From Gammaproteobacteria bacterium (GTDB taxonomy: Bacteria; Pseudomonadota; Gammaproteobacteria; SZUA-152), in contig JAKEGK010000285.1 of NCBI GenBank assembly GCA_022627515.1, positions 1 to 40,484 of the forward strand: 40,484 nt of DNA. The letters run 5' to 3'. This document shows positions 17,059 through 38,566 of this stretch, in pieces. The position numbers and the translations under genes are program-made. The first letter of the stretch is position 1. Each line of letters begins with the position of its first letter. The notes under the pieces were generated by a model, which was given only the letters and a program-made list of their open reading frames with translations, ran no database searches and had not been told where the DNA came from.

Positions 17059-17763
17059 ATGGGACCCCATTACCTGGACCGATTGTTTGCGCCAAAGGCC
17101 ATCGCCGTGTTTGGCGCCAGCGCGCGCAAGAACGCGGTCGGCGCGCGCCTCTATCAAAATCTGCTCGATGCCGGATTTCCCGGTCCGGTCTACCCTGTCA
17201 ATCCCAAGTACCCGGAACTTCACGGCAAACCCTGCTACCCCGGCATTCGTTCCATCAGTGACAACATCGATCTGGCCGTCATCACCACGCCCGCCGCTAC
17301 TGTGCCTGAAATTATCCATGAGTGCGGCGAACATGGTGTGCGCGCGGCCATCGTGATTTCCGCCGGCTTTGGAGAAGGTAACGGCGAAGGTCAGCACTTG
17401 CAGGATCAGTTGTTGCGGGAAGCGTCCCGTTACCGGATGCGCATCATGGGGCCTAATTGCCTGGGATTGATTCGCCCGGAGAAACACCTCAATGCCACGT
17501 TCAGTAAAAACATGGCGCAACCCGGACCGCTGGCATTGGTATCGCAGTCCGGCGCCTTATGCACCGCGATACTCGATTGGGCGGCGCCGCGCAATATCGG
17601 ATTTTCCACGGTGGTTTCCCTCGGCAGCGCCAGCGACATTGATTTTGGCGATGTGCTGGATTATCTGGCGCTGGACCCGGCGACACAAAGCATCCTGTTA
17701 TATATAGAAGGCGTTGGCGACGCGCGCAGTTTCATGAGCGGCCCGCGCCGCCGCGCGGCTTAA
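17059..17763 (+). CDS. patZ: PatZ/Pka-like acetyltransferase, N-terminal fragment (frameshifted gene)
   Basis: The 234 residues match the N-terminal part of the NDP-forming acyl-CoA-synthetase-like protein acetyltransferases (PatZ/Pka/YfiQ). They comprise a CoA-binding Rossmann domain (about 8-130: AIAVFGASARKNAVGARLYQNL ... IDLAVITTPAATVP ... MGPNCLGL) and the start of the succinyl-CoA-ligase-like domain (LALVSQSGALCTAILDWA, VSLGSASDIDFGDVLDYL). The frame then ends prematurely after FMSGPRRRAA. The following bases read in the +1 frame as RAAARLKPVVVVKVGR, the expected continuation, so a net two-base loss (or one-base gain) at about 17742-17744 splits the gene. Fragments total 889 residues, the size of full-length PatZ. 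An AGGA lies eight bases before the ATG. Whether the shift is real or a sequencing error in a GC-rich run cannot be told here. Confidence 0.8.
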   Translation: MGPHYLDRLFAPKAIAVFGASARKNAVGARLYQNLLDAGFPGPVYPVNPKYPELHGKPCYPGIRSISDNIDLAVITTPAATVPEIIHECGEHGVRAAIVISAGFGEGNGEGQHLQDQLLREASRYRMRIMGPNCLGLIRPEKHLNATFSKNMAQPGPLALVSQSGALCTAILDWAAPRNIGFSTVVSLGSASDIDFGDVLDYLALDPATQSILLYIEGVGDARSFMSGPRRRAA

Positions 17764-17767
17764 ACCG

Positions 17768-19735
17768 GTGGTAGTGGTCAAGGTTGGCCGTCATGGTGAA
17801 GGTTCGCGCGCTGTAATATCCCATACCGGCGCATTGGTCGGCTCTGATGATGTGTTTGGCGCGGCGTTGCAGCGCGCGGGCGCCGTGCGCGCCATGACGA
17901 TCGAACAATTGTTTTCAGCGGCGCAGTTGCTGGCGACGCACAACCGCGTCAAGGGCAACCGGTTGGCCATCGTCACCAATGGCGGCGGTCCTGGCGTCAT
18001 AGCCACGGACCGCGCCATTGACCTGGGACTCACGCTCGCCCAGTTTGATGAAAGCACCGTGCAGGCGCTGAACAAACTGTTGCCTGAACACTGGTCGCAC
18101 GGCAATCCGGTCGATATTCTGGGTGACGCCACTGAACAACGCTATGAAGGCGCCGTCCAGGCCTGCCTGCAGGATAATAATGTTGACGGCGTCATCGTGA
18201 TGCTGACCCCTCAGGCCATGACGGAACCGACGTTGGCGGCCAGAGCGGTAATTGCAGCGGGCGAAAATCGGCACAAACCGTTACTCACCTGCTGGATGGG
18301 AGAATCACAAGTCAAAGAGGCCTGGAACCTGTTTGCCGAACACAAGATTCCCTCGTTTCCGACACCGGAAGCGTCCGTTGAGGCTTTTTCCTATCTTGCC
18401 AATTATCATCGTAACCAGTTATTGCTGCTGCAGGTTCCCGCGCCGCTTGCCAGACGCAGCGCGCCGGATGCCGAAGGAGCGCAACTGATTATTGATGGCG
18501 CGCTGGCGGAACACCGCACGATACTTAACAGCCTGGAATCAAAAGCCCTGTTAACCGCCTTCGGTATTCCTGTCACCACCGCCATTGAAGCGCATTCGGC
18601 GAACGAAGCCCTGGTCGCCGCGGAATCGCTGGGATTTCCGGTCGCCATGAAAATCAGCGCATCCAAAATCTCGCACAAATCCGATGTGGGCGGCGTGCGC
18701 CTGAATATTAACGACGCTCATACGGTGCGCAATACTTATAATGCAATGGTAAACACCTTACAAAAGCAACATTCAGACAGCCAAATCAGGGGCGTCACGG
18801 TGGAAAAAATGGTGAGCAGCCCCAATGGCCGCGAATTGATTATCGGCATAATTCGTGACCCTGTGTTCGGACCGGTTATCAGCTTCGGTTCCGGCGGCGC
18901 CGCGGTTGAAGTGCAACGGGACCGCGCGGTGGCGCTGCCGCCATTGAACACTTTTATCGCCAATAACCTGATCGACTATACCCGGGTAGCGAAACTGCTG
19001 GGCAATTTCCGCAATCTGCCCGCGATCAACATGCATGCGCTGATACAGGTGTTGTTGCGCGTGTCAGAAATTGCCTGTGAACTGCCGCGCATCCAGGAAC
19101 TGGATATTAATCCCGTTGTGGCGGATGACAAAGGCGTGATCGCGCTCGACGCGCGCATCGTGATTAATACACACATGACACAACTCAAACCTTATGATCA
19201 TATGGCGATACATCCGTATCCGGCGCATCTGCAAACCCGCTGGCAACTGGCCGATGGCACGGATATCAGCATCCGCCCCATCCGGCCGGAAGACGCGGAA
19301 ATTGAGCAGGCCTTTGTGCGCGACCTGTCACCCAAAGCGAAATATTTCCGCTTCATGCAGGCGCTGCGGGAATTGACGCCGGAAATGTTGATTCGCTTTA
19401 CCCAGATTGACTATGACCGGGAGATGGCTTTTATTGCGGTTCTGGAACAGGATGGCAAGGAGCTGGAAGTCGGCGTGGCGCGTTACGCCACCAATCCGGA
19501 CGGCGAAAGCTGCGAGTTCGCGCTGGTGGTGGATGATGAATGGCAGCATAAAGGCATCGGTTCGCGGTTAATGACAATATTGATGACAACCGCGAAAGCG
19601 CGGGGATTCAAAGCCATGGAAGGAGAAATCCTCGCCGATAATCGTCAAATGCTCAACCTGGTGGATCATCTGGGATTCAGCACTTCAGTCTCGGCGGAAG
19701 ACGCGCATATCGTCAACGCCGTCAAGCAACTTTAA
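17768..19735 (+). CDS. patZ: PatZ/Pka-like acetyltransferase, C-terminal fragment with ATP-grasp and GNAT domains
   Basis: This 655-residue segment continues the preceding fragment in the +1 frame. It holds the second CoA-ligase-like domain (NRLAIVTNGGGPGVIATDRA, with HGNPVDILGDA), an ATP-grasp domain (about 255-470: KALLTAFGIPVTT ... GFPVAMKISASKISHKSDVGGV ... QELDINPVV) and a C-terminal GNAT domain (about 495-655: ISIRPIRPEDAE ... EFALVVDDEWQHKGIGSRLM with the acetyl-CoA loop QHKGIG). In E. coli and Salmonella the GNAT domain acetylates lysines of acetyl-CoA synthetase and other metabolic enzymes, while the synthetase-like part senses acetyl-CoA. The isolated C-terminal half would keep the catalytic domain but lose the sensing half. 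Translation from GTG 17768 would need its own initiation; no strong Shine-Dalgarno is visible. Confidence 0.8.
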   Translation: MVVVKVGRHGEGSRAVISHTGALVGSDDVFGAALQRAGAVRAMTIEQLFSAAQLLATHNRVKGNRLAIVTNGGGPGVIATDRAIDLGLTLAQFDESTVQALNKLLPEHWSHGNPVDILGDATEQRYEGAVQACLQDNNVDGVIVMLTPQAMTEPTLAARAVIAAGENRHKPLLTCWMGESQVKEAWNLFAEHKIPSFPTPEASVEAFSYLANYHRNQLLLLQVPAPLARRSAPDAEGAQLIIDGALAEHRTILNSLESKALLTAFGIPVTTAIEAHSANEALVAAESLGFPVAMKISASKISHKSDVGGVRLNINDAHTVRNTYNAMVNTLQKQHSDSQIRGVTVEKMVSSPNGRELIIGIIRDPVFGPVISFGSGGAAVEVQRDRAVALPPLNTFIANNLIDYTRVAKLLGNFRNLPAINMHALIQVLLRVSEIACELPRIQELDINPVVADDKGVIALDARIVINTHMTQLKPYDHMAIHPYPAHLQTRWQLADGTDISIRPIRPEDAEIEQAFVRDLSPKAKYFRFMQALRELTPEMLIRFTQIDYDREMAFIAVLEQDGKELEVGVARYATNPDGESCEFALVVDDEWQHKGIGSRLMTILMTTAKARGFKAMEGEILADNRQMLNLVDHLGFSTSVSAEDAHIVNAVKQL

Positions 19736-25119: not shown

Positions 25120-26334
25120 TTATTCGTAGCGCAGTGCTTCAATGGGTTGCAGGCGAGATGCCTTGCGGGCCGGGTGCAGTCCGAAGAAAATGCCCACAAG
25201 CGCGGCGAAGGAAAACGCCAGTACGATAGACCATGGCGTGACACTGACTGGAAACTCGGAGAATCTGGAAAGCAGCACTGCGCCGCCAAGACCAAAAAAG
25301 ATTCCGATTACGCCGCCGGCAGCGCTGAGCAATAACGCTTCGAGCAGAAACTGCCAAAGGATATCGCGCCGCCTGGCGCCTAAAGCCATACGAATGCCGA
25401 TTTCGCGGGTGCGCTCGGTGACGGACACCAGCATGATATTCATGATGCCGATACCACCAACCAGCAATGAAACAGATGCAATGCTGCCAAGCAGCCAGGT
25501 AAATACCTTGGCGCTTTCTTCCGAAGTTTTCGCCAGTTCCGCGCGGTTAAACACCCTGAAATCATCCGGTTGGTCTTCCAGCAAACGGTGCCTTTGCCGT
25601 AATAATTTTTTCACCTCCCCCATCACCTGGTAAGTCGCCTCGCGGCCCGCTGTTTGCACTTCGATGCTGTCAACGTAGTCGATGCCCATGATCTTGCGCT
25701 GCACGGTCGTCAATGGCGCCACCACCCGGTCGTCTTCATCTGAACCCCAGGCCGAAGCGCCTTTCACACTCAGTATGCCGCGCACCTGGCAGGCAACTCC
25801 CTTCATCACGATAGTTTCACCAATAGGGCTGGCAAGGCCAAACAATTCACGCGCCACGGTTTGTCCCAGCACACAAACATGATCCGCGCTGACCACGTGC
25901 TGCTCGGTAAAAAACTCCCCTTCGGTCAACGGCCAGTTCCTGACGCTGATATACTCCGGTGTTACACCTTCCACCACCGTGCCCCAGTTGGCGCCACGGT
26001 AGCGCACCTGAACTGATGTGCGCACCGCCGGTGAAACCGCAATCACGCCGGTAATGTCCCGCACCGCTTCGGCATCCGTCCGCATCAGTGAAGTTACGCT
26101 GCCCATACCTGTCCGGACACCGCCACGCGTTACCGATCCAGGCCGGATTACGAGCGTATTGGCGCCCATGCTTTCCAGTTGCTCAGCGATACGTTTTTGG
26201 GCGCCGGCTCCAATGGAAACCATCGCAATCACGGACGCCACACCGATAATCACGCCCAGGGTTGTCAGCATGGCGCGCGATTTATTACGCCACAGCGCCA
26301 TCAGTGCGAGGTGCAATACAGCCGCCCAGTTCAT
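25120..26334 (-). CDS. MacB/LolE-type ABC transporter permease
   Basis: 404 residues with the FtsX/MacB topology. One N-terminal membrane helix follows ALMALWRNKSRAMLTTLGVIIG, then a large periplasmic domain (about 45-270). Three C-terminal helices follow, containing GGIGIMNIMLVSVTERTREIGIRMALGARRRDI, the classic coupling-helix segment of this family. Such permeases do not carry substrate through the membrane but convert ATP hydrolysis into periplasmic movement, driving MacA-TolC type export. Its ATG overlaps the stop codon of the ATPase gene (ATGA), so the two subunits are translationally coupled. In E. coli MacB the ATPase and permease are one chain; here they are separate. Confidence 0.9.
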   Translation of the reverse strand: MNWAAVLHLALMALWRNKSRAMLTTLGVIIGVASVIAMVSIGAGAQKRIAEQLESMGANTLVIRPGSVTRGGVRTGMGSVTSLMRTDAEAVRDITGVIAVSPAVRTSVQVRYRGANWGTVVEGVTPEYISVRNWPLTEGEFFTEQHVVSADHVCVLGQTVARELFGLASPIGETIVMKGVACQVRGILSVKGASAWGSDEDDRVVAPLTTVQRKIMGIDYVDSIEVQTAGREATYQVMGEVKKLLRQRHRLLEDQPDDFRVFNRAELAKTSEESAKVFTWLLGSIASVSLLVGGIGIMNIMLVSVTERTREIGIRMALGARRRDILWQFLLEALLLSAAGGVIGIFFGLGGAVLLSRFSEFPVSVTPWSIVLAFSFAALVGIFFGLHPARKASRLQPIEALRYE

Positions 26335-27014
26335 GACGACGCCTCCAGGCGTCCGTCGCGCAGTATCACCATGCGCTGCGCCCGCGCCGCAACATCCGCT
26401 TCATGAGTAATTAACGCGATCGTCAAGCCCTGCTCCGTGTTTAACTTGTCAAGCAAGGTCAGTAGTTCCGCGCTGGTTGCCGAATCCATGTTACCAGTGG
26501 GCTCATCGGCCAATAACAATGAAGGCTGAGTCACCAGGGCGCGCGCAATCGCCACACGCTGCTGCTGGCCGCCTGACAACTGATTGGGCAAATGATAGAG
26601 ACGCTCGCCAAGCCCGACCAGTTTCAACATTTCCTCTGAGCGGCTGCGGCGTTCGCGCTTGTTTATACCGGCGTATATCAGCGGCGTTTCCACATTTTCC
26701 AATGCCGTGGTGCGTGGTAACAAATTGAAATTCTGGAACACGAAACCAAGTTCCCGGTTACGGATTTGCGCCAGTTGACCACCGCTAAGCTGCGTAACAT
26801 CCTGGCCATTGAGCCAGTAACGCCCCGCATCAGCGATATCCAGGCACCCGATAATATTCATCAAGGTAGACTTGCCTGAGCCTGACGGCCCCATGATGGC
26901 CAGGTACTCTCCCTGTTCAAGAACCAGGTCAATGCCGCGCAAAGCATGCACCTGCACGCCATCGAGGGCGTAGGTTTTATGCAGGCCTTCGATTTTTATA
27001 ATCTCACGTGTCAT
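26331..27014 (-). CDS. MacB-type ABC transporter ATP-binding protein
   Basis: 227 residues with the complete ABC signature set: Walker A GPSGSGKST, Q-loop FVFQNFNLLPRTTALENVETP, signature LSGGQQQRVAIARAL, Walker B LLLADEPTGNMD, and the switch His in LITHEADVAARA. The sequence belongs to the LolD/MacB/FtsE-like branch that drives mechanotransmission permeases. It follows the membrane-fusion-protein gene on the same strand after 320 bp, a gap occupied by a structured repeat, and overlaps the permease gene by four bases. No strong Shine-Dalgarno precedes the ATG. Confidence 0.92.
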   Translation of the reverse strand: MTREIIKIEGLHKTYALDGVQVHALRGIDLVLEQGEYLAIMGPSGSGKSTLMNIIGCLDIADAGRYWLNGQDVTQLSGGQLAQIRNRELGFVFQNFNLLPRTTALENVETPLIYAGINKRERRSRSEEMLKLVGLGERLYHLPNQLSGGQQQRVAIARALVTQPSLLLADEPTGNMDSATSAELLTLLDKLNTEQGLTIALITHEADVAARAQRMVILRDGRLEASS

Positions 27015-27067
27015 AGCGGCGTGACGCCTGGTTCCACCTTGTCACTTTTGTCAGGCACGTTGCGCAA

Positions 27068-27164
27068 CGCCCGGAGGTGCTTGCAAGGCACGCTGTAATT
27101 ACGTCCCTGTACGCTCGACTGCCGCATCCCTGCGGCAGACGGCCTTGCAATTCCCTCCCGGGCG
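27068..27164 (+). repeat. Structured repeat element, copy B, inside the macA-ATPase gap
   Basis: The same core as copy A (CACGCTGTAATTACGTCCCTG ... GACGG) has inner arms CTGCCGC and GCGGCAG around ATCCCT. Relative to copy A, two positions in each arm changed together so that pairing is kept. The outer arms are CGCCCGGAGGTGC-TTGCAAGGC and GCCTTGCAA-TTCCCTCCCGGGCG: a sequence unlike copy A's arms but again self-complementary. It lies between the membrane-fusion-protein gene and the ABC ATPase gene of one probable operon. Confidence 0.85.
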
Positions 27165-27334
27165 ATGCTCGAAGACTTGAAAAAGTAACAAAGCATTATC
27201 GGTTAAGTCCCTTGAAATACGATTTTCGGTAAAGCAATTGCCCGATCAAGCAGCCATGGTTTAATTGGCTTTGTCTGTTTCACCAGGCGCCATTCGCGTC
27301 ATAGCGGTAAATCTGAGGGCAGGCAGAATTAACG

Positions 27335-28528
27335 CTAGAACAACCTTAAACCAAAGCGGCGTGTTTGCTCTTCATCCCCGCGCTTTGGCGGTATGGCTAC
27401 CAGCATATTCTCTTCCAGGCCTTCAGCGGCGATTTCCGTTTCTTTCTCACCGATAATGCCCAGAGTCACCGGCAATGGCTGCAGCGTTTCTCCCTGGATT
27501 AACCAGATCAACCCTTCATTGCGTTTTATTTTGTTGCGTATGGTTTTCAATTCCTGATCCGGCCAGTCCGGAACAAAACGCAGCGCCGTATTGGGCACCT
27601 TTAAAACTTTTTCCCGATGGCCCACCTCGATGGAAACTGTCGCTGTCATGCCCGGCTTTAAGGCAAGGTCCTTGTTATCGACATAAATAATGCAATTGTA
27701 TTTGACGACTCCCGCCTCCACTTTCGGATCCAGCCGCACCTGGGCGACAAGGCCGGAGAATTTCCGGTTAGGGTAGGCAAACACCGTAAAGTGCACCGGT
27801 TGTTGTTCGGCAATGGAACCTATAAACGCCTCATCTACTTCGGTTTCGATTTGCATCCGGGTAAGATCCTGAGCAATGGTGAAAAGCGTCGGCGCCTGCA
27901 GACTCGCCGCAACGGTCTGCCCCACATCCACATTACGCGAAATAACGACACCATCAATGGGCGCAAAGATAAACGTATAGGCCAGATTTACTTTCTCCCG
28001 GTCACGCGCCGCTTTTGCCTGGGCCACGGTAGCATTTCTAACCTTATGCTCGACCACGGCTGTGTCATAGGCGAATCTGGCGACATCGACATCGCTTTCG
28101 GAAACCAGACTTTTCTTTTGCAATTCCTGTAATCGTTCCAGCTGACGCCTGGCGTCCAGCACGCCCACCCAGGCTTTATCGCGGGCGGCTTCGGCGCTTG
28201 TCAGATTGGCTTGCGCCTCGGCCAGCCGCGCCTGAAACAAGGCCGGATCGATTTGCGCAATGAGTTCGCCTTTTTTCACCTGGCTATTGAAATCGGCGTA
28301 GAGATGTTGAATCGTGCCGGAAACCTGGCTGCCGACCTGCACGGTTATGACCGGGCTCAAGGTGCCAGTAGCGGACACGCTGGAAGCAATGTCCCCTCGC
28401 AATACCTTGCCCGGGGAATACGCGGGTCCGGTATCCTTTTGATCCTTGCCGGTGAAGAACCATATCCCGCCCGCAAGTAGCAGTGCTACCGCGGCGGCGG
28501 TGATCCAGAACGAACGGCCAACGGTCAT
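27335..28528 (-). CDS. macA: MacA-like periplasmic adaptor (membrane fusion protein)
   Basis: 397 residues: an N-terminal membrane anchor (FWITAAAVALLLAGGIWFF), a lipoyl/barrel-sandwich half (VQVGSQVSGTIQHLYADFNSQVKKGELIAQID), a coiled-coil hairpin (about 105-190, ARLAEAQANLTSAEAARDKAW ... LERLQELQKKSLVSES), a second lipoyl half (APIDGVVISRNVDVGQTV), and beta-barrel and membrane-proximal domains. This is the order in MacA/HlyD adaptors that link an inner-membrane ABC pump to a TolC-type channel. AGGAG six bases before the ATG is a strong ribosome-binding site. With the separate ATPase and permease it forms a MacAB-type tripartite exporter; TolC is not in the window. Substrates of MacAB systems include macrolides, lipopeptides and virulence factors; the substrate here is unknown. 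Confidence 0.9.
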   Translation of the reverse strand: MTVGRSFWITAAAVALLLAGGIWFFTGKDQKDTGPAYSPGKVLRGDIASSVSATGTLSPVITVQVGSQVSGTIQHLYADFNSQVKKGELIAQIDPALFQARLAEAQANLTSAEAARDKAWVGVLDARRQLERLQELQKKSLVSESDVDVARFAYDTAVVEHKVRNATVAQAKAARDREKVNLAYTFIFAPIDGVVISRNVDVGQTVAASLQAPTLFTIAQDLTRMQIETEVDEAFIGSIAEQQPVHFTVFAYPNRKFSGLVAQVRLDPKVEAGVVKYNCIIYVDNKDLALKPGMTATVSIEVGHREKVLKVPNTALRFVPDWPDQELKTIRNKIKRNEGLIWLIQGETLQPLPVTLGIIGEKETEIAAEGLEENMLVAIPPKRGDEEQTRRFGLRLF

Positions 28529-28813: not shown

Positions 28814-29602
28814 CTACAGGAAAAATTCCTGAATCAGCAGGATAATGATATCGATGGCAATCAGCCAGATGATGATCCATTCCAGCATCGAGGAATGGGC
28901 ATGCTTTTGTTCGTCGGCAATCATCTCCAGCAGATCCTGGATCGTTTCCAGTTTCTTGTTCAATACTTCGATCCTGGGCCGGATTTCCAGGTAATCAGCA
29001 ATCAGGCTGTAATAATACTGCAATTCCGGATACTCCCAGAAGAATTCCGGCACATCCAGTAAATCAAAATGCAGCGAGACGTCGCTTTTGGTCAGATAAA
29101 GGAAACCACGCAGCTTGGCAAGATCCTTGCGCCGCAAACCGGACCGGCCTGTGCTGGCGATACTCTCGGGAATATGCACCGTGGAGGTAATGGTTTTTTG
29201 CACGCTGGATTCAAACTGGCCCAACTTGGTCGATTGCGCAATACCATGCGAAACGGCCAACCGTGAAAAAATGTCATCATCGTTTAAGGTAATATGATCA
29301 TTTTTAAGTGACACCTGCGGCGCATTGAGTTCATAGGTAAACTCATCGTCCAGCACATCCGTCATTGGCTCACGGGCAAATTCCTTCAGCACCCCCAGCA
29401 ACGCATTCCGATCAATCGTTGATACGCGCCAGAACACCGCCACACCATAATCAAATATAAAAACCTCGCCGTTCTGCCAGTTCAACTGCAGCACATTGCG
29501 ATATACCGAGGCGCCATTTGCCTGCGCCAGACGATCACGCAACGCCGGAAAATCATAATATCCGCACTGGCATATGGCGTACACATCAGAGGTTTTTTCC
29601 AT
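28814..29602 (-). CDS. RMD1/YagE-type (DUF155) membrane-anchored protein
   Basis: The 262-residue protein has the features of the RMD1/DUF155 family: a beta-rich N-half with GEVFIFDYGVAVFW, then DEFTYEL and the central VSHGIAQSTKLGQFESSVQ region. The C-terminal half is largely helical, with LRGFLYLTKSDVSLHFDLLDVPEFFWE and a coiled-coil-like stretch up to about 230. It ends in a single hydrophobic helix (about 239-260, LEWIIIWLIAIDIIILLIQ), as in many family members. Eukaryotic relatives include yeast Rmd1 and mitochondrial RMND1; the biochemical role of bacterial members is unknown. It starts 24 bp after the ATP-grasp ligase gene on the same strand, so the two probably form one transcript and this protein may anchor or scaffold the ligase at the membrane. 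Confidence 0.85.
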   Translation of the reverse strand: MEKTSDVYAICQCGYYDFPALRDRLAQANGASVYRNVLQLNWQNGEVFIFDYGVAVFWRVSTIDRNALLGVLKEFAREPMTDVLDDEFTYELNAPQVSLKNDHITLNDDDIFSRLAVSHGIAQSTKLGQFESSVQKTITSTVHIPESIASTGRSGLRRKDLAKLRGFLYLTKSDVSLHFDLLDVPEFFWEYPELQYYYSLIADYLEIRPRIEVLNKKLETIQDLLEMIADEQKHAHSSMLEWIIIWLIAIDIIILLIQEFFL

Positions 29603-29626
29603 GGAGGGTAGAATGATGGTAATCGG

Positions 29627-31099
29627 CTAGCGCCGGCGCGCAACCATGCGGCGTAAAAATTCTTCCATGATTTCCACGTAAAGTTGTTCACCGAGGTATT
29701 TGTCTTCGACACCCGACTCAATGCTGGGATTGTCGTTCACTTCAATCACTACCGCGCGATCATCCGATTGCTTGATATCCACGCCGTAAAAGCCATCACC
29801 GATGAGGCGGCTCGCCTTGGTGGCCACATCCAGCACCGGCTTGGGCACTTCAAAAGTTGGCAGGGTGTCATAACCGCCGGCCTTGACTTCCTTACTGCCG
29901 TATTGGTAGATCTGCCAGTGGTCTTTCACCATGTAATAACGGCAGGCGTATAAAGGCTTGTTGTTCAGCACGCCGATCCGCCAGTCGTAACCGGTGTAGA
30001 GAAACTCCTGCGCCAACAACAAAGCTGATTTTTGCATCAACGCCTTGCTCTCTTTTTCCAGTTCCTGCAGGCTTTCCACCTTGACCACGCCACGGGAAAA
30101 GGAACCATCCGGAATTTTCAGCACCATCGGAAAACCGATACTGTTCACCAGTTGCTGCAGGGATTCTTCCGAAGTGCTGTTCAAAATCTCGGTGCGCGGG
30201 GTGGGAATATTATGGGTTTGCAACAGATCCGCCAGATAGATCTTGTTGGTGCAGCGCAGAATGGAAGTGGGATCATCAATGACCACCAGGTCTTCAGCTT
30301 CCGCTTTTTTCGCAAAACGGTAAGTGTGGTGATCCACCATGGTGGTTTCCCGGATAAACAGGCCATCGTATTCCGGCAAGCGCACATAATCTTTTTTGCC
30401 TATGAATTCAGCGGCAATACCCAACTGGTCCGCGGCTCGCACAAACCGCTTCAGGGCTTTGGCATCGCTGGGGGGCATCTTTTCTTCAGGATCAACCAGT
30501 ATCGCCAGATCATAACGGTAAGTTTTGCGTGACTTCGGACGGCGCCACATCTTGCTGCTGAACTTTTCAAAGGTGTTGGCAAAGGCTTCCTGCTCTTCGG
30601 GGGACGTCAATTCAACCAGCGATATGGGTTTGATGCTCTTGATCGCCCAGGTTTTCTTGAAATTCAGCACAACTTCCAGTATCGGGCAGGGAATACGCTC
30701 GAATACCTCGCGCGCCAGCGGCAGTAATTCCTGCTGCAAACAATCGCCAAACCAGCAGCGGAACGCGCGGGTATCGCCATCCGCCGCCGCCGGCAACTTG
30801 ATCAGTTGTTTTTCCATATCTTCATCTTCAAGTTGCAGAACGGCAAGCGACTTACGGCCCACGTCATTCAAGGTGCGCACCGACGGCAACACATGGTGCC
30901 CGCGCGCTTCAGCCAGCAGTGAACAATAGTAACCGGTGCTTAAATATTTATAACGCCGGCTCAAATTGATGACGCGCACTCTGCCGTGATCCGATTTATG
31001 AACACGGTGTAAATAGTCATCAAAGGTAATTACATCCTGGCTGGGATAATAGGGTGACCAGTCCTTTAAGTTATCCACTACGACAAAAAAATCCGACAT
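29627..31099 (-). CDS. RimK-like ATP-grasp ligase with RLAN-type N-terminal domain
   Basis: 490 residues. The N-terminal half (about 1-200, MSDFFVVVDNLKDWSPYYPS ... RVINLSRRYKYLSTGYYCSLLAEARGH) matches the RLAN (RimK-like ATP-grasp N-terminal) family. The C-terminal part (about 285-490) is an ATP-grasp domain with KIYLADLLQTHNIPTPRTEI, FPMVLKIPDGSFSRGVVKV, the AQEFLYTGYDWRIGVL strand, and metal ligands Asp441 and Glu453/Asn455 in VIEVNDNPS. RimK-type enzymes form amide bonds between a carboxylate (often the C-terminal Glu of a protein) and an amino acid, using ATP. The start is ATG 31099; an in-frame ATG at 31120 and longer reading would cut into the operator palindromes. It is divergent to a DUF2817 peptidase, GNAT-C39 and DUF1704 genes, which defines the module. 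Confidence 0.88.
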   Translation of the reverse strand: MSDFFVVVDNLKDWSPYYPSQDVITFDDYLHRVHKSDHGRVRVINLSRRYKYLSTGYYCSLLAEARGHHVLPSVRTLNDVGRKSLAVLQLEDEDMEKQLIKLPAAADGDTRAFRCWFGDCLQQELLPLAREVFERIPCPILEVVLNFKKTWAIKSIKPISLVELTSPEEQEAFANTFEKFSSKMWRRPKSRKTYRYDLAILVDPEEKMPPSDAKALKRFVRAADQLGIAAEFIGKKDYVRLPEYDGLFIRETTMVDHHTYRFAKKAEAEDLVVIDDPTSILRCTNKIYLADLLQTHNIPTPRTEILNSTSEESLQQLVNSIGFPMVLKIPDGSFSRGVVKVESLQELEKESKALMQKSALLLAQEFLYTGYDWRIGVLNNKPLYACRYYMVKDHWQIYQYGSKEVKAGGYDTLPTFEVPKPVLDVATKASRLIGDGFYGVDIKQSDDRAVVIEVNDNPSIESGVEDKYLGEQLYVEIMEEFLRRMVARRR

Positions 31100-31158
31100 G
31101 AGCGTATCCCGAAAAGTCATACGATTGCCCGCATTGTCATGAATAGCGCTAAAATTCT

Positions 31159-31186
31159 CAACAAATATTTTTTGTTGTTGCAACAA
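31159..31186. promoter_or_regulatory. Overlapping CAACAA/TTGTTG palindromes in divergent promoter
   Basis: CAACAAA-tattt-TTTGTTG (31159-31177) and TTGTTGCAACAA (31175-31186) are perfect inverted repeats that share a half-site, giving three TTGTTG-type half-sites in 28 bp. They lie centrally in the 144-bp gap between the ATP-grasp ligase and DUF2817 gene starts. Their position fits an operator that controls both divergent transcripts; no regulator gene is encoded next to it. Confidence 0.55.
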
Positions 31187-31243
31187 TCAGCGCCACTGTA
31201 TGATAAATCCGTACCTTGTGTTATTACTGCACACAAACTTATT

Positions 31244-32347
31244 ATGAAAAATAACATCAATCTTTCCTGTTTCCCGGCCAGTTACACCAGCGCACGGCAG
31301 CACTTGTTGCAAACCCTGCAGCAAATTTCCGGCCAGCTAACGCGGCGCCACCAGACGTTTAGTCACCCCTTAACCGGTCCTAATGGACAGGCGCTGCACC
31401 TGGACTGGCTCTGGCTGGGACAAAATGAAGCACCTGAAAACATTCTGGTGCTGATTTCCGGCACCCACGGCGTGGAAGGTTTTACCGGCTCGGCAATCCA
31501 GTCTCACTGGCTGCCCTATCTTGCGGAGCAACTGGCAAAACATCCGGAACTGGGGGTGATCATTATACATGCCCTGAATCCATGGGGATTTGCTTGGCTG
31601 CGGCGCTATGACCACGAAGGCATTGATCTGAATCGTAACTTTATCGACTTTAATGCCACGCTACCTCAGAACAAAAACTATGATTTGATTCACAAAGATT
31701 TATTTTGCGATACATCAAGGCAAGTGGCTGACACTCTGGCATACTGGAAATCAAAACTGGGCCATGAGGACTTCCACGCCGTGATTACCCGCGGGCAATA
31801 CCAGCACCCCGATGGCCTGTTTTATGGAGGCGCCTCGCCCAGTTGGTCACGCCAGGTTCTGGAGCAGGCCTGCCGGACCACGGCGTTGCAGAACGCCCGG
31901 CGCATTGCCGCCATTGATTTGCATACCGGACTTGGTCCCTACGGCCACGGTGAAGTGATTAATGATCATCAGCCCGGCAGCGCAGGTTTTAACCTCGCTT
32001 GCCAATGGTATGGCGCCAATGCCCAGTCCGCCCTGTTGGGTGAATCGTGTTCGCCGCCCAAAAGCGGATTAGTCGATTATTTCTGGCATGATCTTATCGG
32101 CGGCCGCGGTTGTTTCGTGACGCTGGAGTACGGCACCTACAGCCTGGAAAAATTGCTTACCGTTTCCTGTGAGGAACAACGTTACCATAATAGTTATGGC
32201 CAAAACCTGGAACAACGCACTATCAATCATGCCGCGGTTACAGCGATACATGATTTTTTCTATCCCAAGGATCACGTATGGCGGGAACTAGTGTTGTTCC
32301 GCGCAGGCCAGGTCATCACCATGGCCCTGCAAGGCATATTAAAATGA
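31244..32347 (+). CDS. DUF2817 family M14-type zinc carboxypeptidase
   Basis: 367 residues with the M14 zinc-peptidase pattern. The ligands are His75/Glu78 in GTHGVEGF and His227 in AAIDLHTGLG. Substrate-carboxylate residues are Asn130-Arg131 in GIDLNRNF, and the catalytic-glutamate region is Glu295 in FVTLEYGTYS. DUF2817 belongs to the M14 superfamily together with succinylglutamate desuccinylases and tubulin deglutamylases, so removal of an amino acid or acyl group from a C-terminus or amine is likely. ATG 31244 was chosen; an in-frame start at 31139 would read through the divergent operator. The stop codon overlaps the next gene's start (ATGA), indicating translational coupling with the GNAT-C39 protein. 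Confidence 0.87.
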   Translation: MKNNINLSCFPASYTSARQHLLQTLQQISGQLTRRHQTFSHPLTGPNGQALHLDWLWLGQNEAPENILVLISGTHGVEGFTGSAIQSHWLPYLAEQLAKHPELGVIIIHALNPWGFAWLRRYDHEGIDLNRNFIDFNATLPQNKNYDLIHKDLFCDTSRQVADTLAYWKSKLGHEDFHAVITRGQYQHPDGLFYGGASPSWSRQVLEQACRTTALQNARRIAAIDLHTGLGPYGHGEVINDHQPGSAGFNLACQWYGANAQSALLGESCSPPKSGLVDYFWHDLIGGRGCFVTLEYGTYSLEKLLTVSCEEQRYHNSYGQNLEQRTINHAAVTAIHDFFYPKDHVWRELVLFRAGQVITMALQGILK

Positions 32348-33453
32348 AACAGATACATATCAGGTCCGCTGACAAAAATGACCTGGATCGCCTGGTGGAA
32401 ATCGAAAATACCTGCTTTACCACTGATATCCTGTCACGCCGCAGTTTCCAACGTTTTATCCGTCCCGGCGCCCACGACGTCAAGGTTGCGGAACTGAATA
32501 ACGAGATTGTGGGTTATACCCTGGTGTTGTACCGCACCGGCACCAGTCTGGCGCGCATGTATTCCATTGCCGTCATTCCGGAGCAACAGGGGAAAGGCAT
32601 TGCCCGGAGGCTCATGGAGGCCGCTGAACAGGCTGGCCGTGAACGGTTTTGCGCTTTTATGCGCCTGGAAGTCAACGTCAACAACGCGCCTGCTATTCAC
32701 TTATATAAAAAACTCGGCTACCGCCAAATAGGCATGATTGAGAATTACTACGATGATGGCAGTGACGCCCTGCGCATGGAAAAACGGATCTATGCCGGTC
32801 TCGTACGAAGGGGCACGGTAACCCCCTATTATGAACAGACCACCGATTTTACCTGCGGTCCAGCCGCTCTCATGATGGCCATGAAAACCATTAACCCGGA
32901 CTATGAAATGGTGCGGCAGGAAGAACTGCAAATCTGGCGCGAAGCCACCACGATTTTCATGACATCCGGCCATGGCGGCTGTTCGCCGCACGGCCTTGCA
33001 TTAAGCGCCTGGCAGCGCGGATTCCAGGTTGAACTCTATATTAATCAACCCGGTCCGCCCTTTCTCGACGGTGTGCGTGATTCCGACAAAAAAGCCGTGA
33101 TCGAACTGGTCCATGACGATTTTATTGCGCGCATTAAAGCAACCGGTATTAAATTGCATGTGGAGGACATCTCACCCGACAAACTGCTGGATATCCTGCG
33201 CAGCAGCAAAGCCATTATCGCCCTGATCAGCACCTGGCGCCTCAACCGCAACAAGGCGCCGCACTGGGTGTTTGTCGCCAATGCGGATGAACATTTTGTC
33301 TATGTCAACGATCCGGATATCTCCGACGAAGGCGCGTGGCTATCAGAAATCGACTATATCCAGGTACCCATTAGCATTCCCGAATTCATCAACATGGCAT
33401 GTTTCGGGCAAAGCCGTCTGCGCTGTTTATTAACGCTCGATAAAAAATCGTAA
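32344..33453 (+). CDS. GNAT acetyltransferase fused to C39-like cysteine peptidase
   Basis: 369 residues in two domains. Residues 1-150 form a RimI-like GNAT domain with the acetyl-CoA loop EQQGKGIARRL (80-90) and VNVNNAPAIHLYKKLGY. Residues 155-360 form a papain-fold C39-type domain with catalytic Cys171 in TDFTCGPAALMMAM, upstream Gln165, and the His/Asp pair His307 and Asp323/325 in APHWVFVANADEHFVYVNDPD. C39 domains usually cleave after double-glycine leaders of exported peptides, but here there is no ABC transporter; the fusion to an acetyltransferase is typical of RimK-like ligase neighbourhoods. The short polypeptide MAGTSV... upstream in the same frame is rejected because ATG 32344 overlaps the DUF2817 stop. 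The next gene follows 68 bp later. Confidence 0.88.
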   Translation: MKQIHIRSADKNDLDRLVEIENTCFTTDILSRRSFQRFIRPGAHDVKVAELNNEIVGYTLVLYRTGTSLARMYSIAVIPEQQGKGIARRLMEAAEQAGRERFCAFMRLEVNVNNAPAIHLYKKLGYRQIGMIENYYDDGSDALRMEKRIYAGLVRRGTVTPYYEQTTDFTCGPAALMMAMKTINPDYEMVRQEELQIWREATTIFMTSGHGGCSPHGLALSAWQRGFQVELYINQPGPPFLDGVRDSDKKAVIELVHDDFIARIKATGIKLHVEDISPDKLLDILRSSKAIIALISTWRLNRNKAPHWVFVANADEHFVYVNDPDISDEGAWLSEIDYIQVPISIPEFINMACFGQSRLRCLLTLDKKS

Positions 33454-33521
33454 AAGAAAGCGTGCATAAAGTCAGTATAAAATCCGTAATCTCACCTTGA
33501 TCCCCATTCCTGAATCAGTAC

Positions 33522-34859
33522 ATGGCTGCAAACACCTACCGTGAGAAACTGAAAACCCTGTCCGATCAGTTGGTTGCCATTCAGCGGCCCATTATGATCC
33601 TTGATGCCATCAAGTGGCCGCGTCATGTGCAGCAGCAATTTATGGACAATGGGGCCCGTAATTTGCCACCAATCGACACTGCTTATTACGAACGGCAACG
33701 CCTGTCTTTTGATCCGCAGGCAAAGCAAAATGAGCTCAAACAACTGCAGCGGTCGATCAATAAAAACCTGGGCAAACATGATGCGCTGGGAAAAATATTA
33801 CGCCATACAGTGGATCAATACCGTATCGTTATCGACATGCTGGCGCAACGCGGGAAAAGCGGATTCCTGCCACTGAGTCAGAAGTTGTACGGCAGTGCGC
33901 AGGATCATTTACGGGGCGACCGCAAATCGATTATTGAGCTGGGTGAACGCCTGTGCCATATTTTTTCCCTGCCAGCCGCGGCGCATCTTGCCCGCCCCTA
34001 CCCGAAAAAACTCTCGGCGCAGGAAGCTGTAAATACTCTGCAAAAAAAACTCAGCGGCTACTTCAACGACGCCGGCTACAAAGTCTGCCTCAGTGACGGC
34101 ATCATTTCGGATGCCTCGGCGGGTGGAGACACTATTAAGATCAACAGCAACGCCAGCTTTTCCGAACTGGATTTAAAAGTACTGGAAGTGCATGAAGGCT
34201 GGGTGCATGTGGGCAGCACGCTGAATGGCCGGCGCCAGCCATGGGCCACATGGTTAAGTGTGGGTTCACCGCGCATCACCGCTACCCAGGAAGGACTTGC
34301 CATAATCATGGAAACGCTGACGTTCAGTTCGTTTCCCAACCGCGCGCGCCGCATCAGCGACCGGGTCGTCGCCATCGACATGGCCGAAAAAGGCGCGGAT
34401 TTTATCGAAGTCTACCGGTACTTTGTAAACAGCGGGCTCAGTGAACACGACAGCTACATTATCGCGCAGCGCACTTTCCGCGGCGGCCAGGTAACCGGCG
34501 GCGCCTGCTTTACCAAGGATCTTTCTTATGTGAAAGGTTTTGTGGAAACCGTCAACTTTATCCGCAGCGCCATTCTCAGCGGTGTGCCGGAAATTCTGCC
34601 CATGCTGTTTGTCGGAAAAGTCACCCTGGATGATTTGCCCAGTCTCTATGAACATTCCCTGGAAGGGCTGGTCAAACCACCCGCGTATTTGCCGCCAATG
34701 TTCCGCGACCTCAATGGCCTGTATACCTGGTTTGGTTTTTCCAGCGGCATGACCCTGGTGGATCTGGGGCGGGTAAAACGCCATTTTGAAAAATTGTTTG
34801 CCACTTTGCCCGCTGTCAGTCCGTTGATTGCGGCGGAACCGGATGTTGAAATCGATTAG
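33522..34859 (+). CDS. DUF1704 family QEGLA-motif metallopeptidase (MATCAP-like)
   Basis: 445 residues of the DUF1704 family, annotated in databases as 'flavohemoglobin expression-modulating QEGLA motif protein'. The metal motif HEGWVH (224-229, HExxxH type) is followed by TQEGLA (255-260), the family's second signature, where Glu completes the zinc site. In animals this family (MATCAP/KIAA0895L, TMCP) comprises carboxypeptidases that remove the C-terminal Tyr or Glu of tubulin; bacterial members lack a proven substrate. The gene is third in the rightward transcript after DUF2817 and GNAT-C39. No strong Shine-Dalgarno is seen before the ATG, consistent with coupling or weak initiation. There is a large N-terminal helical region (about 1-170). 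Confidence 0.87.
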   Translation: MAANTYREKLKTLSDQLVAIQRPIMILDAIKWPRHVQQQFMDNGARNLPPIDTAYYERQRLSFDPQAKQNELKQLQRSINKNLGKHDALGKILRHTVDQYRIVIDMLAQRGKSGFLPLSQKLYGSAQDHLRGDRKSIIELGERLCHIFSLPAAAHLARPYPKKLSAQEAVNTLQKKLSGYFNDAGYKVCLSDGIISDASAGGDTIKINSNASFSELDLKVLEVHEGWVHVGSTLNGRRQPWATWLSVGSPRITATQEGLAIIMETLTFSSFPNRARRISDRVVAIDMAEKGADFIEVYRYFVNSGLSEHDSYIIAQRTFRGGQVTGGACFTKDLSYVKGFVETVNFIRSAILSGVPEILPMLFVGKVTLDDLPSLYEHSLEGLVKPPAYLPPMFRDLNGLYTWFGFSSGMTLVDLGRVKRHFEKLFATLPAVSPLIAAEPDVEID

Positions 34860-37177: not shown

Positions 37178-38566
37178 TTATGGCCAGATGCCGCGAATCA
37201 GGGTTGCCTTGGTTACCCGCTCGATGGCGATAATCATCGCGATGGTGCGGAAATCCGGCGGATGCGGACGTTGCTTGGCCGTTGCGTTTTCTGTTGCAGC
37301 CGGTTCCTCGCCCACGACAAATGACTGCCAGCGGCTAAACACATCGTCAACCGCGTGATACATTTTATTCTTGAGCTTTTCCGTGATCTCTTCCAGGTCC
37401 CATTGTTCATTCGCCTGATTTTGCACCCATTCATAGTAACTGACCGTAACACCACCGGCGTTAACCAGAATATCGGGCAGTACATAAATGCCTTTTTGGT
37501 AGAGAATATCATCCGCTTTGGGAGTCGTGGGATTGTTCGCCGCTTCGACGATCAGCCTGGCTTTTATATTATTGGCGTTGCCGCCATGAATCTGGTTACC
37601 CACCGCGGCGGGCATCATGATGTCACATTCCAGTTCCAGCAATTCCGCGTTGGTAAGGGACAAGGTGCCCGGCATGCCTACCACCGTACGGTGTTCCGCC
37701 TTATATCGCTCGACTTCATCCGGGTCCAGGCCCTCGTCCCTGTAAATACCGCCCTGGCTGTCACTGACGGCGATAACCCGGGCGCCTCGGCGATAAAACG
37801 CGCGCGCGGCAACAGACCCGACATCCCCAAAACCCTGGATTACGATACGCGCGCCGGCAATTTCCAGGCGGTCCGGAATAAGCGCCTTCGACAGAAACCG
37901 CTCCGTCGCGTATACGCAGCCATTGCCCGTGGCGTCGATACGGCCATAGGACCCGCCCATTTCGATGGGTTTGCCGGTAACAACCGGCCGGTTGTTATAA
38001 CCCGGATGCAGAATATCGTAGGTGTCGAATATCCAGGCCATGGTCTGTTCGCTGGTGTATAAGTCGGGCGCGGGTATATCCTTGTGCGGCCCGATCACGT
38101 CAAACAACTCCGAAGTAAAACGCCGGGTAATGCGCCGCAGTTCTCCTTCGCTTAACGCCTTGGGATCGCATACCACTCCGCCTTTTGCGCCGCCAAACGG
38201 TATGTTCACCAGGGCGCATTTCCAGGTCATCAGCTTGGCGAGCGAAACCACTTCTTCGCGCGTGACTTCAGGATGATAGCGAATGCCGCCCTTGCCGGGA
38301 CCAAATACCCGGTTATGAATAACCCGGAAACCCTCAAAACTTTTTACCGATCCATCATCCAGCTCGACAGGAAAGTTGACAATCGTTGTGCGCTTGGGTT
38401 TTTTCAGGAAATCGATCAGGCCTTTTTTCAGATCCACAATATAACGCGCGGCGCGGTCAAACTGCAATTCACTGATGTACACAGGATCAAGGTTCTCGCT
38501 GTCAGCAATGACTGTTGTATTGGCAGGCGCGTATTTTCCGGATGTTTTGTGTTTCTTGTCTGACAT
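37178..38566 (-). CDS. Glutamate dehydrogenase (Glu/Leu/Phe/Val dehydrogenase family)
   Basis: The 462-residue protein has the family hallmarks: catalytic-lysine regions GPGKGGIRYHPEVTREEV and MTWKCALVNIPFGGAKGGV, the IPAPDLYTSEQTMAWIFDTY segment, and a Rossmann domain with GFGDVGS (245-251) followed by VSDSQGGIY. It catalyses reversible oxidative deamination of glutamate to 2-oxoglutarate with NAD(P); the cofactor type cannot be read with certainty. A Lys-rich N-terminus and a charged insertion near the C-terminus (EEPAATENATAKQRPH) are somewhat unusual. The HxlR regulator gene lies 42 bp upstream on the same strand, so the two may be co-transcribed. The assignment to glutamate rather than to leucine or phenylalanine is by overall resemblance. 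Confidence 0.92.
   Translation of the reverse strand: MSDKKHKTSGKYAPANTTVIADSENLDPVYISELQFDRAARYIVDLKKGLIDFLKKPKRTTIVNFPVELDDGSVKSFEGFRVIHNRVFGPGKGGIRYHPEVTREEVVSLAKLMTWKCALVNIPFGGAKGGVVCDPKALSEGELRRITRRFTSELFDVIGPHKDIPAPDLYTSEQTMAWIFDTYDILHPGYNNRPVVTGKPIEMGGSYGRIDATGNGCVYATERFLSKALIPDRLEIAGARIVIQGFGDVGSVAARAFYRRGARVIAVSDSQGGIYRDEGLDPDEVERYKAEHRTVVGMPGTLSLTNAELLELECDIMMPAAVGNQIHGGNANNIKARLIVEAANNPTTPKADDILYQKGIYVLPDILVNAGGVTVSYYEWVQNQANEQWDLEEITEKLKNKMYHAVDDVFSRWQSFVVGEEPAATENATAKQRPHPPDFRTIAMIIAIERVTKATLIRGIWP

Follow-up and report, generated by a model that had tools for sequence, protein, structure and literature searches.

A conserved RLAN-RimK ligase and GNAT-C39 peptidase pair with recurrent DUF155 and DUF2817 partners in a gammaproteobacterial locus

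What would a bacterium do with a peptide ligase whose gene stands among those of three putative peptidases? The question is raised by a five-gene module at positions 28814-34859 of contig JAKEGK010000285.1 from a Gammaproteobacteria bacterium (assembly GCA_022627515.1), all 40,484 nucleotides of which were analysed and are called the window here. The module comprises an ATP-grasp ligase with an RLAN domain (RLAN-RimK), an acetyltransferase fused to a C39-like cysteine peptidase of the DUF3335 family (GNAT-C39), a DUF155 protein, a DUF2817 protein and a MATCAP metallopeptidase. A first-pass annotation had recognized these five families and their divergent arrangement; Pfam confirmed both, assigning every family far above its cut-off. 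It had also described the catalytic motifs as intact, and this is borne out by homologue alignments for the ligase, GNAT-C39 and DUF2817, and by motifs in the sequence for MATCAP.

A conserved pair and its recurrent partners

RLAN-RimK and GNAT-C39 are a near-obligate, conserved pair. Among 274 genomes of the class surveyed for the five families, RLAN was found in 63, DUF3335 in 44, MATCAP in 39, DUF155 in 37 and DUF2817 in 11. Weak matches were set aside before counting: four to DUF3335, one to DUF155 and, for DUF2817, fourteen genomes in which every match was weak. The line was drawn by eye at a large gap in score, and some of the excluded matches exceed Pfam's own cut-off. RLAN is present in 43 of the 44 DUF3335 genomes (10.1 expected, p=1.6e-33). 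The two genes lie within 10 kb of each other in 40 of these and on different contigs in the other three.

DUF155 and DUF2817 are recurrent partners of the ligase. RLAN and DUF155 occur jointly in 21 genomes (8.5 expected, p=1.5e-6) and lie within 10 kb of each other in nine, against 0.14 expected if genomes of ∼3 Mb and random placement are presumed. The nine loci are not all independent, because two pairs of genomes share a genus. On the same presumption, DUF2817 lies within 10 kb of RLAN in five genomes where 0.03 are expected, and genome-level co-occurrence of these two families alone is not significant (p=0.13). The expectation that all five families would be co-localized with intact active sites therefore held for RLAN, GNAT-C39, DUF155 and DUF2817, but not for MATCAP.

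Gene order tells a similar story. GNAT-C39, or part of it, adjoins RLAN in most of 34 named loci, with DUF2817 between them in five. Co-directional pairs mostly abut or overlap and would therefore be co-expressed; some loci seem to carry a GNAT lacking the C39 domain. Neighbour clustering combined with Pfam resolved two layouts. In layout A, GNAT-C39 stands with RLAN, joined in some loci by DUF2817 or an M14 carboxypeptidase (the latter in L041, L043, L053 and L064) and by DUF155. In layout B, a lone C39-like peptidase is followed by RLAN, GCS2 and an N-formylglutamate amidohydrolase, with DUF155 present in L065 and L073. The GNAT-fused and lone C39 groups are homologous (E 7.9e-09, probability 95.8). 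The pair also recurs beyond the class, elsewhere in the phylum. For example, three loci from one family of another class (L134, L137 and L138) carry GNAT-C39, RLAN and DUF155 in that order together with DUF2817, DUF155 adjoining RLAN in each, and DUF2817 lies near RLAN in five loci of another class or classes.

The ligase is distinct from RimK. It matches RLAN (PF14401, 152.4 bits) and the RimK ATP-grasp domain (PF08443, 47.9 bits), and its ATP-grasp residues Lys329, Asp442, Glu454 and Asn456 are invariant in an alignment of 48 RLAN homologues. An AlphaFold model reached a predicted local distance difference test score (pLDDT) of 89. Foldseek placed ArgX/LysX, D-Ala-D-Ala ligases and RimK as the solved structures nearest in fold. 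The listed matches align over ∼300-325 columns with targets of ∼270-320 residues, and because of these lengths they appear to span the ATP-grasp part and not RLAN. Both RimK equivalog models fell short (NF007764, 40.1 bits against a cut-off of 331; TIGR00768, 94.2 against 143.4), and the genome carries a separate, true RimK elsewhere (C177, 224.2 bits), so that the RLAN enzyme was rejected as the genome's RimK. The fusion of RLAN to a RimK-like ATP-grasp domain is that of the RLAN-RimK/GNAT-papain-like peptide ligase systems, as is the adjoining papain-like peptidase, which in these systems is DUF3335 or a lone C39-like domain and often GNAT-fused. Plasmid and phage searches returned distant matches plus two informative annotated neighbourhoods. 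On the Pseudomonas aeruginosa plasmid pZYPA1927 (L151), an RLAN-RimK homologue with 50.8% identity neighbours a glutamate/aspartate ATP-binding cassette (ABC) transporter and a gamma-glutamyltransferase, with no GNAT-C39 annotated close by.

GNAT-C39 combines GNAT (PF00583) with the DUF3335/C39-like domain (PF11814, 277.6 bits). The C39 residues Gln165, Cys171 and His307 are invariant in all 35 homologues and Asp323 is kept in 34; the AlphaFold model has a pLDDT of 91.5. The GNAT domain scores marginally above the RimI family cut-off (TIGR01575, 86.9 bits against 86.4) and below that of NF007025 (43.4 against 173), and its nearest relatives are N-alpha-acetyltransferases. An M20 peptidase of ArgE-like type stands beside the GNAT-C39/RLAN pair in L040, L052, L061, L079, L084 and L085, an adjacency that may reflect gene order shared with arginine genes.

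DUF155 (PF02582, 163.5 bits) belongs to the RMND1 family, which is tied to mitochondrial ribosomes, and the aligned RLAN-linked DUF155 proteins share a conserved tail, LEWIIIxLIAxxIII. DUF2817 (PF10994, 299 bits) keeps H75xxE78, R121, N130-R131, H227 and E295 invariant across eight aligned proteins. Its relationship to M14 is weak by sequence: the best match to a solved structure has E 0.015, and the MpaA profile is hit at E 3.3e-4, yet with 19.7 bits against a cut-off of 157. A single fold family of DUF2817, M14 and N-formylglutamate amidohydrolase is plausible by motif, but profile comparisons made with small alignments did not bear it out (probabilities of only 14.6 and 2.9).

Architecture of the locus

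Table 1. Features of the module and its neighbours in the window
Feature	Position	Strand	Basis
ATP-grasp_5/GNAT protein (acyl-CoA-ligase type acetyltransferase)	17059..19735	+	
HlyD adaptor, ABC ATPase and MacB-like permease	25120..28528	-	
DUF155 protein (RMND1/Sif2-Sif3/Mrx10 family), C-terminal membrane helix	28814..29602	-	Pfam and alignment
RLAN domain plus RimK-type ATP-grasp ligase, 491 amino acids	29627..31102	-	Pfam
Divergent intergenic region, ∼140 bp, presumed promoter region	31103..31243	.	Sequence
DUF2817 zinc carboxypeptidase-like protein, M14-type motif HxxE...H...E	31244..32347	+	Pfam
GNAT (RimI-like) N-acetyltransferase fused to DUF3335 C39-like cysteine peptidase, 369 amino acids	32344..33453	+	Pfam, NCBIfam
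MATCAP/DUF1704/QEGLA HExxxH metallopeptidase	33522..34859	+	Pfam; non-conserved addition to the module
Glu/Leu/Phe/Val dehydrogenase	37178..38566	-	

Homologue alignments together with the sequence indicate that three gene starts most likely lie where Table 1 places them: RLAN at 31102 rather than at the TTG at 31186, DUF2817 at 31244 in place of 31139, and GNAT-C39 at a corrected 32344. The GNAT-C39 start overlaps the DUF2817 stop (ATGA), 24 bp separate RLAN from DUF155, and 68 bp separate GNAT-C39 from MATCAP. Because of this spacing, two divergent transcription units around the 140-bp intergenic region are likely. Promoter and terminator scans of the locus returned nothing that clearly exceeds chance, the intergenic region holding one minus-strand sequence that weakly resembles a promoter and is no better than chance. 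None of the five genes matched a PADLOC model of anti-phage defence, and a defence system was rejected on that ground.

Several neighbours lie outside the module. The exporter genes (for HlyD adaptor, ABC ATPase, MacB-like permease) follow DUF155 downstream on its strand; they were rejected as part of the module, as they are not conserved near RLAN elsewhere. A Glu/Leu/Phe/Val dehydrogenase lies near the module, and members of its family are also found near RLAN in L039, L072 and L075, the last two of one genus. The ATP-grasp_5/GNAT gene is possibly split or frameshifted, its N-terminal part lying perhaps in the upstream open reading frame 17059-17763, in another frame.

What the module may do

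We favour a cytoplasmic ligase-peptidase module that modifies the ends of a peptide or protein, and give this reading a probability of about 0.5. The strong conservation of the ligase-peptidase pairing, with DUF155 as a genuine partner, gives a firm basis for some function of the ligate-and-trim or ligate-and-mature kind. In the favoured scheme, the ATP-grasp ligase would activate a carboxyl group, most likely at the C terminus of a peptide or protein encoded outside the locus, and would add one or more alpha-amino acids, with glutamate the likeliest. The C39-like domain would cut the same chain that the ligase extends, the RimI-like GNAT would cap its amino end by acetylation, and DUF2817, here reinforced by MATCAP, would trim residues from the carboxyl end. 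Ligation and trimming would then compete to determine chain length, as in RimK/RimB, and DUF155 would probably tether the enzymes or what they act on to the membrane. Two of the ligase's fold-neighbours are consistent with the scheme, ArgX/LysX acting at the C-terminal Glu of the protein LysW and RimK at that of the protein RpsF. Several points weigh against it. The D-Ala-D-Ala ligases, whose substrates are small molecules, rank nearly equal to ArgX and RimK in fold, and the GCS2 and N-formylglutamate amidohydrolase of layout B suit a small-molecule pathway equally well. Transpeptidase activity is conceivable for the C39-like domain in place of peptidase activity, profile comparison from small alignments put the probability of a match between DUF2817 and the M14 enzymes of neighbouring loci at just 14.6, and the glutamate connection is indirect.

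The module might instead make and degrade a small N-acylated oligopeptide, such as an osmolyte, a storage peptide or a signal (compare N-acetylglutaminylglutamine amide), in which case the GNAT would cap it, the ligase extend it and the peptidases recycle it. We regard this as possible, if somewhat unlikely. It keeps its standing chiefly because of layout B, where the ligase is joined with GCS2 and N-formylglutamate amidohydrolase; the fusion of a GNAT to the ligase's partner, the D-Ala-D-Ala ligases among the nearest folds and the glutamate dehydrogenase near RLAN in the window and three loci (two of one genus) also suit it. So does the outcome of a search for substrate genes: among small open reading frames (22-90 amino acids) within 5 kb of RLAN across loci, only a cold-shock-like protein and small groups from close relatives recur, by which a conserved precursor peptide beside the module was rejected. 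Since the outer neighbours vary and no small open reading frame is conserved, the substrate is probably either a metabolite or the product of a gene outside the locus. However, the closest relatives of the GNAT work on protein amino ends, ArgX and RimK work on protein carboxyl ends, and the GNAT scores only 22.4 bits with the acetylglutaminylglutamine model TIGR03103, whose cut-off is 569.

A narrower form of the favoured reading, which we hold to be doubtful, is that amino acids are added reversibly, as a tag, to the C terminus of a bacterial protein in the cytoplasm or at the membrane, with the ligase opposed by papain-like and zinc carboxypeptidases and MATCAP serving as an extra eraser in some lineages. 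The target might be ribosomal, as relatives of the RimK-like ligase, the RimI-like GNAT and DUF155 are each connected with ribosomal proteins or with mitochondrial ribosomes.

Maturation of a ribosomally made peptide, in which the C39-like domain would remove a leader, the GNAT cap the new amino end and the ligase modify the carboxyl end, is a weakened and by now improbable account. C39 peptidases classically cleave double-glycine leaders (PMC10318531) and a MacAB-like exporter lies downstream in the window, but that exporter is not a conserved neighbour, no small open reading frame beside the module is conserved across loci, and many loci have an abutting pair with no intervening space.

MATCAP itself is securely identified. 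It scores 444.2 bits against PF08014 and 382.8 against the QEGLA model TIGR02421 (cut-off 338.65), and carries both HEGWVH and TQEGLA, in keeping with the HExxxH and (Q/E)EG motifs of its family. The first-pass annotation made it one of five genes in a single writer-eraser system with a parallel to the tubulin code. That proposal, taken as a conserved five-gene system, now seems very unlikely: MATCAP stands in the same probable operon and the same order in the window and in L004 (Spongiibacteraceae UBA5047, which has no DUF155 beside RLAN), but L004 is the only one of the 34 named loci to have it, it shares 10 surveyed genomes with RLAN against 9.0 expected by chance, and only in the window genome are the two close. 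MATCAP was accordingly rejected as part of the module's core. What stands of the writer-and-erasers idea is the conserved ligase-peptidase pairing with its DUF155 partner. The tubulin parallel is weakened, leaning as it does on the non-conserved MATCAP and on a DUF2817 whose link to M14 is weak, and a tubulin substrate is not to be looked for in such a bacterium.

Elsewhere, 20 other MATCAP genes revealed no widely conserved neighbour. In two of these loci, from different genomes (L107 and L108), RimK-like and RimB-like (Zn_protease) genes adjoin MATCAP, with Pfam scores in L108 of 215.7 bits for RimK and 92.3 for Zn_protease, and in L122:1059-3074 (minus strand) MATCAP is fused to an N-formylglutamate amidohydrolase domain. 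Both observations favour the five-gene proposal; the occasional links to RimK-type loci fit a role in C-terminal trimming without membership of the core. Other MATCAP proteins of ∼630-670 residues in the class survey may share the fused form, and L119 gave no match to the N-formylglutamate amidohydrolase family. The 4 kb around a second MATCAP copy in the window genome (contig C117:6822-7883, L002) contain no genes of the module, RLAN included.

Precedents and implications

The idea of such systems is not new. Iyer and colleagues reportedly predicted in 2009 that neighbourhoods of RLAN/RimK-like ATP-grasp proteins, papain-like peptidases and GNATs carry out peptide synthesis or tagging. Those systems reportedly share the ligase family, the DUF3335-GNAT fusion and the general proposal of peptide ligation plus peptidases; the DUF155 partner and the recruitment of MATCAP are not known to be described there. 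The fusion is described in PMC10318531, citing Iyer et al. 2009 (doi 10.1039/b917682a), which PMC12239564 and PMC4431377 also cite. Full-text searches, whose coverage mostly left out subscription journals, found no description of the exact combination. The family-level idea is old, and as far as checked the quantified DUF155 link and the recruitment of MATCAP appear undescribed.

Experimental precedents exist for ligases paired with peptidases. The RimK/RimB/RimA system is an independently tested case of glutamylation with an opposing peptidase (PMC11957791), setting a RimK-type ATP-grasp ligase against RimB in C-terminal modification. However, RimB is a retropepsin-like aspartic protease, whereas the present module has papain-like and zinc peptidases and its RLAN ligase is not RimK. 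The Rlo operon of Pseudomonas aeruginosa, a precedent for an ATP-grasp protein with an associated peptidase, also places a cytoplasmic ATP-grasp, a membrane protein and a peptidase in a single operon (PMC12239564), but its secreted retropepsin-like RloA and inactive transglutaminase RloB belong to families absent here. ArgX/LysX, the closest solved fold to the ligase, adds an amino acid to the C-terminal Glu of the carrier protein LysW; the module has neither a LysW-like protein nor arginine or lysine pathway genes. Eukaryotic MATCAP/TMCP tubulin carboxypeptidases, of the same HExxxH family as the window's MATCAP, are C-terminal carboxypeptidases and deglutamylases that strip tubulin of polyglutamate and of its C-terminal residues (PMC10499314), whereas MATCAP is not a conserved member of the bacterial module.

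The RLAN ligase family is present in 63 of the 274 genomes surveyed, and no product was found reported in the literature searched. A reversible C-terminal tag, if confirmed, would place the module beside RimK/RimB among the rare bacterial systems of this kind. Finally, RMND1, a human protein implicated in mitochondrial disease, is a relative of the DUF155 family, whose recurrent partnership with a peptide ligase offers a testable lead for both.

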